Positions 19,045 through 24,935 of a DNA stretch of 44,809 nt are shown piece after piece. The notes beneath the pieces were generated by a model that made no database searches, was not told the origin of the DNA, and saw only the letters and a program-made list of their open reading frames with translations. The DNA comes from Polyangiaceae bacterium (GTDB lineage Bacteria > Myxococcota_A > Polyangia > Polyangiales > Polyangiaceae): positions 1 to 44,809 of the forward strand of contig JADLAB010000118.1 of assembly GCA_020848455.1 (NCBI GenBank), in the 5' to 3' direction. Every line of letters begins with the position of its first letter. Position 1 is the first letter of the stretch. Position numbers and translations under genes: made by a program.

Positions 19045-19132
19045 CCCCCGCGCCAGCAGCGCAACGCGGGCCCCGGTAGGCTCGGAGCCCGCGCGGTTGC
19101 CTCGGCTGCGCGCGGAGCGTAGAAAGGCCGCG

Positions 19133-20437
19133 ATGCCAGCCCAGAGCCAGCCCGTGAAAGGTCCGCAGACGCCGGCGTCCCCGGCCCCCGCCACCCCGGC
19201 AGCATCCTCCGCCGAGCGCGGGGCGACCCGCGAGGCGGACCTCTTGGCCCGCGCACGCCAGCACCTGCTCGCCAACTACAAGCCCGCCCCCATCGTCCTC
19301 GCCGAGGGGCGCGGGGTGGAGGTGCGCGACGTCGCCGGGCGGCGCTACCTCGACTTCTGCGCCGGCGTCGCGGTCTGCGCGCTGGGGCACGCTCACCCGG
19401 GGCTCGCCGCGGCGCTCGCCAGCCAGGCCGGGCGCCTGATGCAGGTATCGAACTACTTCTACAACGAGGAGAACATCGAGCTCGCCGCCGAGCTCTGCGC
19501 CGCGACCGGCTACGACCGCGCGTTCTTCTGCAACTCCGGGGCCGAGGCCAACGAGGCGATGCTCAAGCTCGCCCGGCGCCACTTCTTCGCGCTGGGGCAG
19601 CCCGAGCGCCACGGGATCCTCGCTTTCGATCGCTCCTTCCACGGCCGCACGCTCGGCGCGCTCGCCATGACCGGCAACCCGGCGTACCAGCAGGGCTTCG
19701 GGCCGCCCGTCGCCGGCATCCGCCACTTGCCTTACGGGGACCTCGCCGCGGTCGAGCAGGCGCTCGGCCCCACCGTCGCCGCCGTGATCGTCGAGCCGGT
19801 GCAAGGCGAGGGCGGCGTGCTGCCGGCGCCCGAGGGGTGGCTGCCGGGGCTGCGGCAGCTGTGCGATCGCGCCGGCGCGCTCTTGCTCGTCGACGAGGTG
19901 CAGACCGGCATGGGCCGCACGGGGCGCATGCTCGGAAGCGACCACCAGGGGGTGCGCGGCGACGCCATCGCCCTCGCCAAGGGCCTCGGCGGCGGCTTCC
20001 CGATCGGCGCCATGCTGTGCCGCGAGGCGCTCGGGGGCGCCCTGCCACCCGGCACCCACGGCTCGACCTTCGGGGGCAACCCGCTCGCCTCGCACGCCGC
20101 CCGCACGGTGCTCCGGCTCCTGCGCGAGCAGGGGCTCGTCGACGCGGCGCGCGAGCGGGGCGCCCAGCTCTCGGCCGGGCTCGCGAAGATCGCGGCGCGC
20201 CACCCGACGGTGTGCACCGGCGAGCGCGGGCTCGGGCTGCTGCGCGCGCTCACCCTGCAGCCGGGGCGGGCGGCGCGCGATCTGCTCGAGCCCTGCCGCA
20301 AGCGCGGTCTGCTCCTGACCGCTGCCGGCGCCGAGGCGCTGCGCCTCACGCCGCCGCTCGTGGTGACACCGGCCGAGATCGACGAGGCGCTCGCCCTGCT
20401 CGATGCGGCGCTCGGCGACGTCGACGGCGCAGCCTGA
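19133..20437 (+). CDS. argD: Acetylornithine/succinyldiaminopimelate aminotransferase family (class III, PLP-dependent)
   Basis: A 434-residue enzyme of the family that transfers the amino group between N-acetylornithine and 2-oxoglutarate in arginine synthesis. Class III features are clear: LDFCAGVAVCALGHAHP, FFCNSGAEANEAMLKLARR, SFHGRTLGAL, VEPVQGEGG, LLVDEVQTGMGRTG (Asp254) and the PLP Lys283 in ALAKGLGGGFPIGAM. The C-terminus matches ArgD (RGLGLLRAL..., PPLVVT..EIDEAL). ATG 19133 follows an AGAAAGG sequence and is preferred to an upstream in-frame start at 19097. The first 40 residues are a Pro/Ala-rich extension not usual in ArgD. It leads a plus-strand gene series reaching 25905. Ornithine or 4-aminobutyrate aminotransferase is a less likely alternative. 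Confidence 0.88.
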   Translation: MPAQSQPVKGPQTPASPAPATPAASSAERGATREADLLARARQHLLANYKPAPIVLAEGRGVEVRDVAGRRYLDFCAGVAVCALGHAHPGLAAALASQAGRLMQVSNYFYNEENIELAAELCAATGYDRAFFCNSGAEANEAMLKLARRHFFALGQPERHGILAFDRSFHGRTLGALAMTGNPAYQQGFGPPVAGIRHLPYGDLAAVEQALGPTVAAVIVEPVQGEGGVLPAPEGWLPGLRQLCDRAGALLLVDEVQTGMGRTGRMLGSDHQGVRGDAIALAKGLGGGFPIGAMLCREALGGALPPGTHGSTFGGNPLASHAARTVLRLLREQGLVDAARERGAQLSAGLAKIAARHPTVCTGERGLGLLRALTLQPGRAARDLLEPCRKRGLLLTAAGAEALRLTPPLVVTPAEIDEALALLDAALGDVDGAA

Positions 20438-20466: not shown

Positions 20467-22746
20467 ATGCTGCCGCCCCTGCGCGATCGCCCCACCGGCC
20501 CGACCGGACCGCAGGTCAGCTGCTCGGGGTGCGGCGCCGTCCTCGACGCGCTCCGCGCCGGGCACGTGGCGATCCTCGGCGCGCGCTTCCACTACTTCTG
20601 CAACTACGCTGTCTGCCGGTCGCGCTTCCTCGGGCTGCCGATCGCCCCGCTCGACGCCAGCCCCACCCCGCCACCGCGCCCCGTCGGTCCGCCCCTGCTC
20701 GTCGCCGCGGTGAGCGGCGCCGAGGCGACCGAGCCCGTCGGCCTGCGCGTGCCCGCGCAGGCCCCCGGCAACAGTCCCGGCGAGCTCATCGAGCCCTTGC
20801 CGAGCTACCTGTCCGAGCCCACGGCCGGGGCGCGCGCCGAGCGCGCCGAGCGCCGCGACGTCGGCATGCTGCTCATCGCCCTGACGCTCATCGCCGGGGC
20901 GCTGGCGATGGCGCTCGAGTTCGCGAGCCCGAGCCGGCTGGTGCTCGTGGCGCGCGCGGTGCTCCTCGCCGTCGGCACGGCGGCCTTCGTGGGCCAGGTG
21001 CTGACCGGCCGCCGGGACGCGACCGACCCGCACCCGGCGGTCGTGTCGGCCCCGCCCGTGCTCGCGACCGTGGTGGCGGCCTGGGCCTTCGCGGCGCGCT
21101 CCGGCGACGGCCTCGGGCGCGCCACCTTCCTCGGCGGCGCCGTGCTCGTCGTCGCGGCCGTGGGCTACGCGCTCGTGGCCTGGTTGCGCCGCCCCGTCGC
21201 CTCGGACCGCGACGCCATGGCCGAGCTGCTCGACGTGCCCGCGCGCCGCCCCAAGACCGACCCCACGGCGCCCGCCGCCCAGTGCGCCAACTCCGACATC
21301 CGCAGCGGCGAGGAGGTCGTCGTCGAGGCGGGCGAGATCGTCCCGGTCGACCTCGTGATCACCGAGGGCGAGGGGGAGATCCTCGCCCCCGTGCCCGACA
21401 GTCCGCGCGTGCGCAAGCGCGTGAACGACGTGGTGTGCGCGGGCTGTCGCCTCCTCGGCGGGCAGCTGCGCGGCGTGTGCACCTGGGCGGGCGACGAGCG
21501 CGCCCTGGCGCGCCCGCTGTTCGACGCCGCCCGCCGGGCCGACCGCCACGCGCCCGTGGCGCGCCTGGCGCGGCTGATCGCGGAGCGGGGCGCCATCGTG
21601 CCGCTCGTGCTCGCGGTCGTCTACGCCCTGGTGCGCCGCCGCCCGCCGCTCGACGCGGCGCTCGTGGCGGTCGGCGGCATGGCGGCGATCGCGAGCCTGC
21701 CCCTGGCCACGTCGGCCTCGCTCGCCATCGCCCGCGGCCTGCGCGCGGCCTTGCGGCGCGGCATCGTCTACAACCAGGCGCGCGCCTGGGACCGGTGCGC
21801 GCGCACCACCGCGGCCGTCTTCTGCGCCCGGGGGACCCTGTTGCGCGGCGAGCCCGAGCTCACCGACGTCGAGCGCACGAGCGACCGCGCCACCCTCGAG
21901 GAGGTGCTCGCCCTCGGCGCCGGAGCGCTCGCGGCGGAGCGCACGCCCATCGGCGCCACGCTCGTGCGCGCGGCGCGGCAGCGCGGCGTGACTCCGGACG
22001 CGACGCGCAACGGCCGGCTCGTCCCCGGCTACGGCGTCACGGCCGTCGCGTCGACGGGCGAGGTCCTGTGCGTGGGCAACCGCGCCCTCCTGCTCGAGCG
22101 CGGCATCTCGATGGCGGCGGCCGAGCAGCGCATCTTCGAGCTGGAGTCGGCCGGGCGCAGCGTCATCCTGGTCGCCAAGGGCGGCCGGCTGCTCGGCCTG
22201 CTGGCGCTCGCGGACGGCCTCCGCACCGGCGCCCGCGCCGCCGTGCAGCACCTGCTCGACACGCGCATCGAGCCCGTGCTCCTCGCGGCCGACGCCCGCC
22301 AGACCTGCGAGGCGCTCGGGCGCTCGCTCGACATCGACCACCTGCGCGCCGAGGTCCCGGACACCGAGCGGGCCGCCGAGATCAAGCGCCTCCAGGAAGC
22401 GGGAGCCGTCGTCGCGGTGATCGGCCACAGTCCGATCGACGACGAGCCGCTCGGGCGCGCCGACGCCTCGATCGTGCTCGGACACGCGGGCAGCGCCCCG
22501 GACGAGTCGAGCGCGTCGCTCGTGCTCGACGACGTGCGCGACGCCGCGCTGGCCCTCGCGCTCGCCGCGCGCACCCGCCGCGCCGCGATCCAGGCCCTGA
22601 CGCTCGCCGCGGTACCGGCCGCCTTCGGCGCGCTCGTGACCGCCGTGGGCCTGCTGCCGCCCGAGTACGCGCCCCTCGCCTCCGCGCTCGGGGCGCTCGC
22701 GGCGAGCGCGCACCTGTGGCTCTTCGACCGCACGCTGCGTGGCTGA
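20467..22746 (+). CDS. Degenerate heavy-metal-type P-type ATPase (catalytic motifs lost) with N-terminal Cys-rich domain
   Basis: A 759-residue membrane protein with the full P1B layout. An N-terminal Cys motif (C19xxC22...C45xxxxC50, zinc-ribbon/TRASH-like) is followed by membrane helices (132-240), an actuator-like region with GEEVVVEAGEIVPVDLVI, two more helices, a nucleotide/phosphorylation-like domain and final helices. The core motifs are changed. DKTGT reads CARGT (453-457, Cys for the phosphorylated Asp; TGC at 21823-21825). The TGE region reads PDSP. CPC in the ion helix reads SLP. HP reads TP (493-494). GDGxND reads GHSPID. The Asp of the TGD motif (AAD, 609) is retained. ATP-driven transport is therefore unlikely; metal sensing or partner regulation is inference. 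It follows argD by 29 nt. Confidence 0.85.
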   Translation: MLPPLRDRPTGPTGPQVSCSGCGAVLDALRAGHVAILGARFHYFCNYAVCRSRFLGLPIAPLDASPTPPPRPVGPPLLVAAVSGAEATEPVGLRVPAQAPGNSPGELIEPLPSYLSEPTAGARAERAERRDVGMLLIALTLIAGALAMALEFASPSRLVLVARAVLLAVGTAAFVGQVLTGRRDATDPHPAVVSAPPVLATVVAAWAFAARSGDGLGRATFLGGAVLVVAAVGYALVAWLRRPVASDRDAMAELLDVPARRPKTDPTAPAAQCANSDIRSGEEVVVEAGEIVPVDLVITEGEGEILAPVPDSPRVRKRVNDVVCAGCRLLGGQLRGVCTWAGDERALARPLFDAARRADRHAPVARLARLIAERGAIVPLVLAVVYALVRRRPPLDAALVAVGGMAAIASLPLATSASLAIARGLRAALRRGIVYNQARAWDRCARTTAAVFCARGTLLRGEPELTDVERTSDRATLEEVLALGAGALAAERTPIGATLVRAARQRGVTPDATRNGRLVPGYGVTAVASTGEVLCVGNRALLLERGISMAAAEQRIFELESAGRSVILVAKGGRLLGLLALADGLRTGARAAVQHLLDTRIEPVLLAADARQTCEALGRSLDIDHLRAEVPDTERAAEIKRLQEAGAVVAVIGHSPIDDEPLGRADASIVLGHAGSAPDESSASLVLDDVRDAALALALAARTRRAAIQALTLAAVPAAFGALVTAVGLLPPEYAPLASALGALAASAHLWLFDRTLRG

Positions 22747-22820
22747 TCCGGGCGGCGCGCGGCCGTCCGGGCGCGTGCTCGGCGTTGACGGTGTGGGCAC
22801 CCCGCGCTACCCGATGCGCC

Positions 22821-23678
22821 ATGCAGAGCGCGACGCCTCGTCGATCGACCGTCGGGCGGCGGGGGCCGGCGTGGCGGGCGCTCGTCGGCGTGCCGCTCGT
22901 CGCGGTCCTCGGCCAGGGCGCCGTGTGCCTGCCCCCGAAGGGCGAGATCGACCGGGTGTCACGCGCCGAGTACGACCTCGCCCGCGACGCCCTCGAGCGG
23001 CGCGACCCGCGCCAGGCGCTCGACCACGTCGCTCGCGCGGTGGCCGCGGACGAGGCGAACGCCGACGCCGCCTACCTCGGGGCCGTCATCCTGCTCGGCT
23101 TCTGCTCGGCCGAGGAGGCGTCCTCGGACTGCCGCTACGCGGAGGCCGAGAGCTACGCGCGCAGGGCGCTCGCCGCCGACCCCGACCACCGCGACGCGCG
23201 CAACGCGCTCGGCGTCGTCCTGGTCAACGAGAAGCGCCCCGCGGACGCCATCGAGGTGCTGAAGCCGCTCGCGGACGACATCCTCTACGGCTCGCCCGAG
23301 AAGGCCTGGGGCAACCTCGGCTGGGCGCAGCTCGAGGCCGGCCTGCCCGACGAGGCGATCGCCTCGCTGAAGCGTGCCGTCGCCGCCGCGCCGAGCTACT
23401 GCGTCGGCCACCTCCACCTCGGCGACGCCTACCGCGCCAAGCGCGAGCATGCCGCGGCGCGGCAAGCGTACGGCCGAGCGCTCGAGATCGACAAGGGCGA
23501 CTGCTCCCGGCTGCAAGAGGCCTATCTCGGCCGCGCCGAGTCGAGCATCGCCCTCGGGCAGCCGGCCGACGCCACGGAAGATCTCCAGCGATGTCGCGAC
23601 GTTGCCCCACAAACGGCGGTGGGTCGCACCTGCGCCCACAAACTTCAGGTATTGAAGCAGGACCAAAACGGTGGTTGA
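22821..23678 (+). CDS. TPR protein resembling type IV pilus assembly pilotin PilF/Tgl
   Basis: A 285-residue exported protein with a hydrophobic N-terminal segment ending at Cys36 (GAVC, an imperfect lipobox). The body is a series of tetratricopeptide repeats, the clearest being ARDALERRDPRQALDHVARA, ARRALAADPDHRDARNALGV, AWGNLGWAQLEAGLPDEAI and GHLHLGDAYRAKREHAAARQ. In Pseudomonas (PilF) and Myxococcus (Tgl), TPR lipoproteins of this kind are needed to assemble the outer-membrane PilQ secretin. The next gene encodes a RodZ-like HTH membrane protein. The pilF-rodZ neighbour pair is conserved in gammaproteobacteria, which supports the call. A generic TPR lipoprotein remains possible. Start ATG 22821 gives the signal segment. 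Confidence 0.65.
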   Translation: MQSATPRRSTVGRRGPAWRALVGVPLVAVLGQGAVCLPPKGEIDRVSRAEYDLARDALERRDPRQALDHVARAVAADEANADAAYLGAVILLGFCSAEEASSDCRYAEAESYARRALAADPDHRDARNALGVVLVNEKRPADAIEVLKPLADDILYGSPEKAWGNLGWAQLEAGLPDEAIASLKRAVAAAPSYCVGHLHLGDAYRAKREHAAARQAYGRALEIDKGDCSRLQEAYLGRAESSIALGQPADATEDLQRCRDVAPQTAVGRTCAHKLQVLKQDQNGG

Positions 23679-23717
23679 AGGGGTGCGCCCCATTCCTATG
23701 GGTTTGACGCAGGTGCC

Positions 23718-24179
23718 ATGACGGCGAGTCGGGTCGAATCGGTCGGCGGGTTTCTCAGGCGCACGCGCATCCACAAGGGGATGAGCGTGACCGAGGTCGC
23801 GCGCGCCACCCGCATCCCGCAGAGCGCCCTCGAGCGCATCGAGGCGGACCACTTCGACGATCTGCCCGGCGAGGTGTTCGCGCGCGGCTTCCTCAAGGCG
23901 TACGCCCGGGCCGTCGGGCTCGATCCGGCGGAGGTGCTGGCGCGCTACACGTCCGCACGCCGCGTGGTGTCGGTCGCCCCGCTCCCCATGGCGACGCCCG
24001 TGCGGCGCCCCGGCAGCCGCCGCTTCGGCGTGGCCATCGCGTTCGTGCTCCTGCTCCTGCTGTTCACGCTCGCGCTCAGCATCCTGCTGCGGCCGCGAGG
24101 GCACGACCGGCCGAGCGAGCTGTCCCTGCGCGCCGCCCCGGGCGCGGCCGTCGACGGCGTGCGCACGGCCCACGGCTGA
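23718..24179 (+). CDS. RodZ-like membrane protein with N-terminal helix-turn-helix domain
   Basis: A 153-residue protein with an N-terminal HTH_25-type domain (SVGGFLRRTRIHKGMSVTEVARATRIPQSALERIEADHFDDLP, described by residues 8-50) and the conserved VFARGFLKAYARAVGLDP continuation. A basic stretch, one membrane helix (103-124) and a short exported tail follow. RodZ links the actin-like MreB cytoskeleton to the cell wall machinery; the HTH-like domain binds MreB instead of DNA. The periplasmic part is much shorter than in E. coli RodZ (337 residues). It lies 39 nt after the PilF/Tgl-like gene and before recO. Confidence 0.75.
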   Translation: MTASRVESVGGFLRRTRIHKGMSVTEVARATRIPQSALERIEADHFDDLPGEVFARGFLKAYARAVGLDPAEVLARYTSARRVVSVAPLPMATPVRRPGSRRFGVAIAFVLLLLLFTLALSILLRPRGHDRPSELSLRAAPGAAVDGVRTAHG

Positions 24180-24218
24180 GGCCTGGCCCGCCCGGGGCGG
24201 AGCGGAGCCCTCCGGACC

Positions 24219-24935
24219 GTGCGACGTAGCCGCGCCACGCGCATCGCGAGCCGCGCCGAGCTCGTCCGCCGCGTGGCGTTCGGCGAGTCGGACGTCATCG
24301 TGACGCTCTTCACCGAGCAGATGGGCAGCGTGGCGGCGCTCGCGCGCGGCGCTCGCGCGAGCCGGAAGCGCTTCGCCGGGCTCGAGCCGATGCACCAGCT
24401 CGAGGTCGAGATCGACCTCGTGGCCGGTCGCGATCTCGGCGCGCTGGTGAGCTCGCGGCTGGTCCGTCCGCGGCTCGGCCTCACGAGCTCGCTCGCGTGC
24501 CTCGACGCGGCGGGCGCCGCGCTCCGCTGGCTGGCTGCGGTCGCCCCGGCGCACGTCGCCGAGCCCGCCCTGTGGGCCGAGATCGAGGGCCTGCTCGACG
24601 AGCTCGACGCGCCGGCGAGCGCGCCCGCCGCCATGCTCGGCGCCTTCGGCCTGCGCCTGCTCGCCGCGGCCGGCTGGGGGCTCGAGCTCGCGCAGTGCGT
24701 GCGCTGCGGCCGCGCGTGTCCCGAGCGCTCGGCGGGCCGGCTCGACCTGCCCGCCGGTGGCCTCGTGTGCCGCACCTGCGGCGGCGCGCCGGTGCTGCTC
24801 ACCGCGCGCGAGCGCCGGGCCCTCGTGGAGGCCGGTCACGGGGTCGTGGACGCGCTCGCCAGGCCCGAGGACGCCGCGCTCGCGGCGCGCCTGGTCACCG
24901 AGGCCATCGAGGTGCACGGCCGTGGCCCGCGCTGA
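24219..24935 (+). CDS. recO: DNA repair protein RecO
   Basis: A 238-residue recombination mediator of the RecF pathway, which anneals single strands and helps load RecA. The N-terminal OB-fold region has the typical LVRRVAFGESDVIVTLFTEQMGSVAALARGAR (residues 15-45), followed by RKRFAGLEP. The central part is helical and the C-terminal zinc finger has C160xxC163 and C184xxC187. GTG 24219 follows a purine-rich GGAGCGGAG stretch. The gene lies 39 nt after the RodZ-like gene. Its last 14 nt overlap the next gene, which suggests translational coupling. Confidence 0.9.
   Translation: MRRSRATRIASRAELVRRVAFGESDVIVTLFTEQMGSVAALARGARASRKRFAGLEPMHQLEVEIDLVAGRDLGALVSSRLVRPRLGLTSSLACLDAAGAALRWLAAVAPAHVAEPALWAEIEGLLDELDAPASAPAAMLGAFGLRLLAAAGWGLELAQCVRCGRACPERSAGRLDLPAGGLVCRTCGGAPVLLTARERRALVEAGHGVVDALARPEDAALAARLVTEAIEVHGRGPR

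Follow-up and report, generated by a model that had tools for sequence, protein, structure and literature searches.

The phosphorylated aspartate is what defines the P-type ATPases. There is precedent for dead P-type units, since Chan and colleagues reportedly described in 2010 a family (FUPA family 24) in which a dead type I ATPase half is fused to a type II ATPase and only the type II part is functional. A case closer to current debate is human TMEM94 (ERMA), a disputed P-type ATPase-like protein that lacks TGES, for which no ATPase activity was detected and which binds a nucleotide analogue with micromolar affinity (PMC12134183). It has ten transmembrane helices, is structurally closest to the Ca2+ pump SPCA and keeps D417 (PMC12134183); a more recent article nonetheless upholds its status as a Mg2+ pump (PMC13322241). 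Here we consider a gene in the window (the whole stretch of 44,809 nucleotides that was analysed, from a Polyangiaceae bacterium) whose relatives form a widespread bacterial clade that appears to have abandoned the entire cycle. Among openly licensed papers on pseudo- or inactive P-type ATPases, we found no report of this Polyangia family.

A heavy-metal ATPase layout with its motifs replaced

Homology of the window protein to P1B-type ATPases spans the membrane, A, P and N domains. Pfam assigns E1-E2_ATPase (2e-11) and HAD hydrolase (4e-10) domains, and the NCBIfam model for P1B pumps, TIGR01525, matches at 2.3e-56 with 192 bits, which is 154 bits short of its 346-bit cut-off. The closest solved structure for the family profile is A. 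fulgidus CopA (3j08; 2.7e-79, over profile positions 131-738). The heavy-metal ATPase layout and intact frame proposed in the initial annotation are thus borne out, and descent from a heavy-metal pump of the copper type is shown at the level of sequence. AlphaFold2, applied to 7 sequences, gave pLDDT values of 31.6 for the full length and 34.7 for the P/N domain alone, and yielded no usable structure model. The genome also encodes three canonical P1B pumps with DKTGT, so that pumping is already covered.

Table 1. Positions of the gene, its motifs and its upstream neighbour in the window.
Feature	Position	Strand	Observation
Pseudo-P1B-type ATPase ORF	20467..22746	+	759 aa plus stop; frame open
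Four-Cys TRASH/YHS-like finger (aa 17-51; C19, C22, C45, C50)	20515..20619	+	Invariant in 54/54; weak Pfam matches
Actuator TGE position, here V-P-D (aa 309-311)	21391..21399	+	Ala for Glu in 41/54
Transmembrane CPC metal-ligand position, here A-S-L (aa 409-411)	21691..21699	+	Lost in 54/54
DKTGT position, here C-A-R-G-T (aa 453-457)	21823..21837	+	Asp absent from all 54; Arg or His at aa 455 in all 54
N-domain HP position, here T-P (aa 493-494)	21943..21948	+	His retained in 32/54, not in window copy
N-domain G-x-G, retained (aa 521-523)	22027..22035	+	Alignment
GDGxND position, here G-H-S-P-I-D (aa 653-658)	22423..22440	+	Last Asp (D658) retained
argD-type class-III aminotransferase gene	19097..20437	+	29 nt upstream of ORF; conserved partner in window family

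The motifs were compared in an alignment of 54 clade members and 28 P1B pumps that carry DKTGT, among them CopA and ZntA of E. coli. The alignment upholds the replacements first read from the window sequence, namely CARGT for DKTGT (Cys453, codon TGC at 21823-21825), TP for HP and GHS for GDG, as well as the loss of TGE, whose position aligns to V309-P-D311. The loss of CPC also stands, with one adjustment, as the 'SLP' originally read there is off by one residue from the aligned A409-S-L411. At the position of the phosphorylated Asp, the 54 members carry Cys (35), Ser (8) or Leu (5), then Val, Asn, Gln and Met. The Thr of DKTGT is Arg in 48 members and His in 6, the GDG Asp is gone throughout (Arg in 26, His in 21), the P-domain Lys is Arg in 47, and the M7 Asn is missing from every member. 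Conversely, the last Asp of GDGxND persists in 53/54, and GxG, G537 and G563 are retained.

Each of the 86 aligned non-identical homologues, mostly 29-51% identical, lacks all four of the phosphorylated Asp, TGE, CPC and GDG, so that the search for substitutions at the DKTGT site proposed at the outset returned relatives without the aspartate in 86 of 86 cases. Because each relative examined has these same losses, the finding is far from chance. Arg or His occupies the places of two Mg-site groups, beside the retained Asp, an arrangement that we read as a probable salt-bridge or anion site rather than a Mg2+ site; in the window copy, Arg455 and His654 would replace Mg2+ ligands near Asp658.

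Conservation and erosion within Polyangia

A 96%-identical copy is present in a second genome, a groundwater MAG (loci L009/L016), and copies of ~45% identity occur in several Sorangium genomes, three of which are recorded as complete. At 1e-60 the window protein finds matches in 95 of 290 genomes of the class Polyangia, and more divergent members missed at this threshold were recovered with the family profile and with finger searches. Among the genomes sampled, the clade is found only in Polyangia (Myxococcota), in dozens of genera; a finger search of 141 genomes across the phylum turned up just a single ORF, of 152 aa, beyond the class. In the FastTree phylogeny, 54 pseudoenzymes fall on one side of a branch and 28 canonical P1B pumps, among them the two from E. 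coli, on the other (support 1.0, stem 0.87). A second tree of 44 pseudoenzymes and 20 canonical pumps, which adds 15 members, most of them more divergent, recovers the same split with an SH-aLRT of 100. The inner branching order is uncertain because the branches are long, and a FastTree placement of one protein, L163, inside the window's family was dropped once more members were added. No intermediate between pump and pseudoenzyme occurs among the inspected loci, where the best profile match has either DKTGT or neither DKTGT nor GDGxND.

The Nei-Gojobori method puts dN/dS at 0.11 for the window pair, and comparisons of Sorangium strains give 0.13-0.26. These sequence comparisons strongly support a pseudoenzyme clade maintained by purifying selection without its catalytic residues. 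The suggestion of a maintained pseudoenzyme rather than a decaying gene, for which a tree and a dN/dS estimate had been advised, thus agrees with one monophyletic group apart from the canonical pumps, with the selection estimates and with the class-wide spread.

Other Polyangia families have gone further. Twelve finger-bearing proteins, L163 among them, keep just 9-12 residues of the 76-residue actuator stretch; three others keep 54-60 and one keeps 66. The P-sites of these eroded proteins are scrambled (e.g. FLARRSLF, GAKDILT) and the finger is nearly unchanged. As judged from the alignments, some lineages of the clade have lost the actuator domain.

The N-terminal finger and the gene neighbourhood

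The finger follows the pattern CxxC...DPLRA...FCxxxC, with the second Cys pair spaced C-x3/4-C. It resembles the TRASH, YHS and zf-FCS fingers in its C-x2-C ... F-C-x3-C spacing and in weak Pfam matches in many members, but differs from them in its distinct D-P-L-R-A core. The best member E-values are 1e-6 to 1e-5 (DUF7576, TRASH), under the curated cut-offs where seen, and the window copy has no significant match. A related finger protein matches YHS at 1e-7, and the YHS domain of a mycobacterial cyclase has been described as a probable copper sensor (PMC4626032).

The DPLRA finger also heads other proteins. Seven membrane proteins with HEAT-like repeats carry it, one of which (L225) matches HEAT_2 at 7.7e-13; in a further protein (L254:3932-4885) it is followed by a membrane helix and then a peptidase-like domain, M23-type by eye; and in three loci a Ser/Thr kinase gene comes directly after the gene for a small protein of finger and single helix.

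Gene context is not uniform across the families of the clade. In nearly all members of the window family argD or argD-argF lies just upstream, and several members of other families have argH immediately downstream; one apparent conserved neighbour, L104dn, was rejected as a shadow ORF overlying argH. Later neighbour analysis used genes predicted with a simple GC-based gene caller. In 24 loci there is a Fur-family regulator gene 9-464 nt downstream; the two genes share a strand in most of these loci but are convergent in Sorangium. The Fur neighbour is absent at the window copy, which is surrounded by arginine and housekeeping genes: on its 3' side lie a TPR protein with a lipoprotein-like start (22812-24935), then an HTH_25 (RodZ-like) protein and RecO. 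L009, L111, L112 and L116 have this set too; in L111 and L112 the TPR gene is ~2.6 kb further off. One subclade is neighboured by a Ser/Thr kinase gene; myxobacteria carry very many kinases, which makes this link the weakest.

Proposed role and comparison with known systems

The joint loss of the phosphorylated Asp, the dephosphorylating Glu, the GDG Asp, CPC and the M7 Asn suggests that both the phosphorylation cycle and metal pumping are almost certainly absent. Intact retention across the class, on the other hand, suggests a new use for the pump body, as a sensor or scaffold in the membrane. We therefore favour, with moderate confidence, a non-pumping membrane protein in which the finger is a binding site for metal or a partner and the ATPase body is a regulatory scaffold. 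On the cytoplasmic side, the finger would bind either a partner protein or a metal ion of the Cu or Zn class, and the former pump body would hand the bound state on to a partner; in members with HP and GxG, the body may still bind nucleotide. Candidate partners from gene context are the adjacent Fur-type metalloregulator, the Ser/Thr kinase found in one subclade and, in another family, TrkH. The metal sensing proposed in the initial annotation gains support for the N-terminal Cys motif, given its four invariant cysteines, its finger-like spacing and the Fur genes adjacent in 24 loci, but not, as a family feature, for Cys453. More tentatively, the clade may stem from a single ancient loss of catalysis that turned a copper-type pump into class-wide membrane metal-sensing pseudoenzymes, which later shed the actuator in some lineages, with the DPLRA finger as a shared signalling adaptor.

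Several other explanations have to be weighed against a sensor or scaffold. The strongest competitor, though still unlikely, is that the dead pump body serves as a regulatory or assembly subunit of a separate transporter such as TrkH, much as KdpB does with KdpA, without supplying energy. In eight actuator-less loci a TrkH-type cation transporter gene indeed starts 0-151 nt downstream; however, neither the window copy nor the rest of its family has TrkH nearby, and the ancestry is P1B, not Kdp. It is less probable again that the protein acts as a passive or secondary carrier, through which metal can still traverse the membrane with no ATP hydrolysed: the membrane portion survives, along with an N-terminal Cys finger, but the CPC ligands and the M7 Asn have disappeared from all members.

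The remaining explanations centre on the altered phosphorylation site or on the integrity of the gene. A redox or metal sensor built around Cys453 would fit the fact that Cys is the commonest residue there, yet six other residues are also found, and in the actuator-less branch no Cys is conserved at the site. Position 453 varies among members, so its Cys is unlikely to be the essential feature; both the Arg/His in place of the DKTGT Thr and the loss of the GDG Asp are more constant. The role once suggested for Cys453 is not supported as a family trait, and we regard this explanation as very improbable. An active pump with another nucleophile (phosphorylation on Cys or Ser, or on an Asp at a different site) is more doubtful still, for although Asp658 and GxG are retained, CPC has gone along with the TGE Glu and the GDG Asp, and some members have Leu or Val at the nucleophile position. 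Finally, a recent mutant, pseudogene or assembly error has a negligible chance: a single internal TGA does occur in one Sorangium member (G258/L033, on the same contig as L012) and in one other (G259), but the clade is conserved across dozens of genera and its dN/dS lies far below 1, which refutes this origin for it.

Placed beside the known systems, the sensor or scaffold that we favour shares with A. fulgidus CopA and E. coli CopA the membrane, A, P and N layout, GxG, the last Asp of GDGxND and, in many members, HP; it differs from CopA-type P1B pumps in having no phosphorylated Asp, TGE, GDG or CPC and in forming a separate clade. The clade provides a natural series from pump to scaffold and shows which parts have been retained for non-catalytic reasons. 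Like the type I half of FUPA family 24, it is a type I P-type unit that appears to be without function as a pump, but the dead unit there is fused to a live pump, whereas in Polyangia it stands alone with a finger. With TMEM94 it has in common P-type-like domains without a working cycle; TMEM94, however, is eukaryotic, has ten transmembrane helices and an SPCA-like structure, and still possesses D417; the two are likened via their shared superfamily only. At this level, the clade is a bacterial system in which to pursue the question currently under debate for the human protein.
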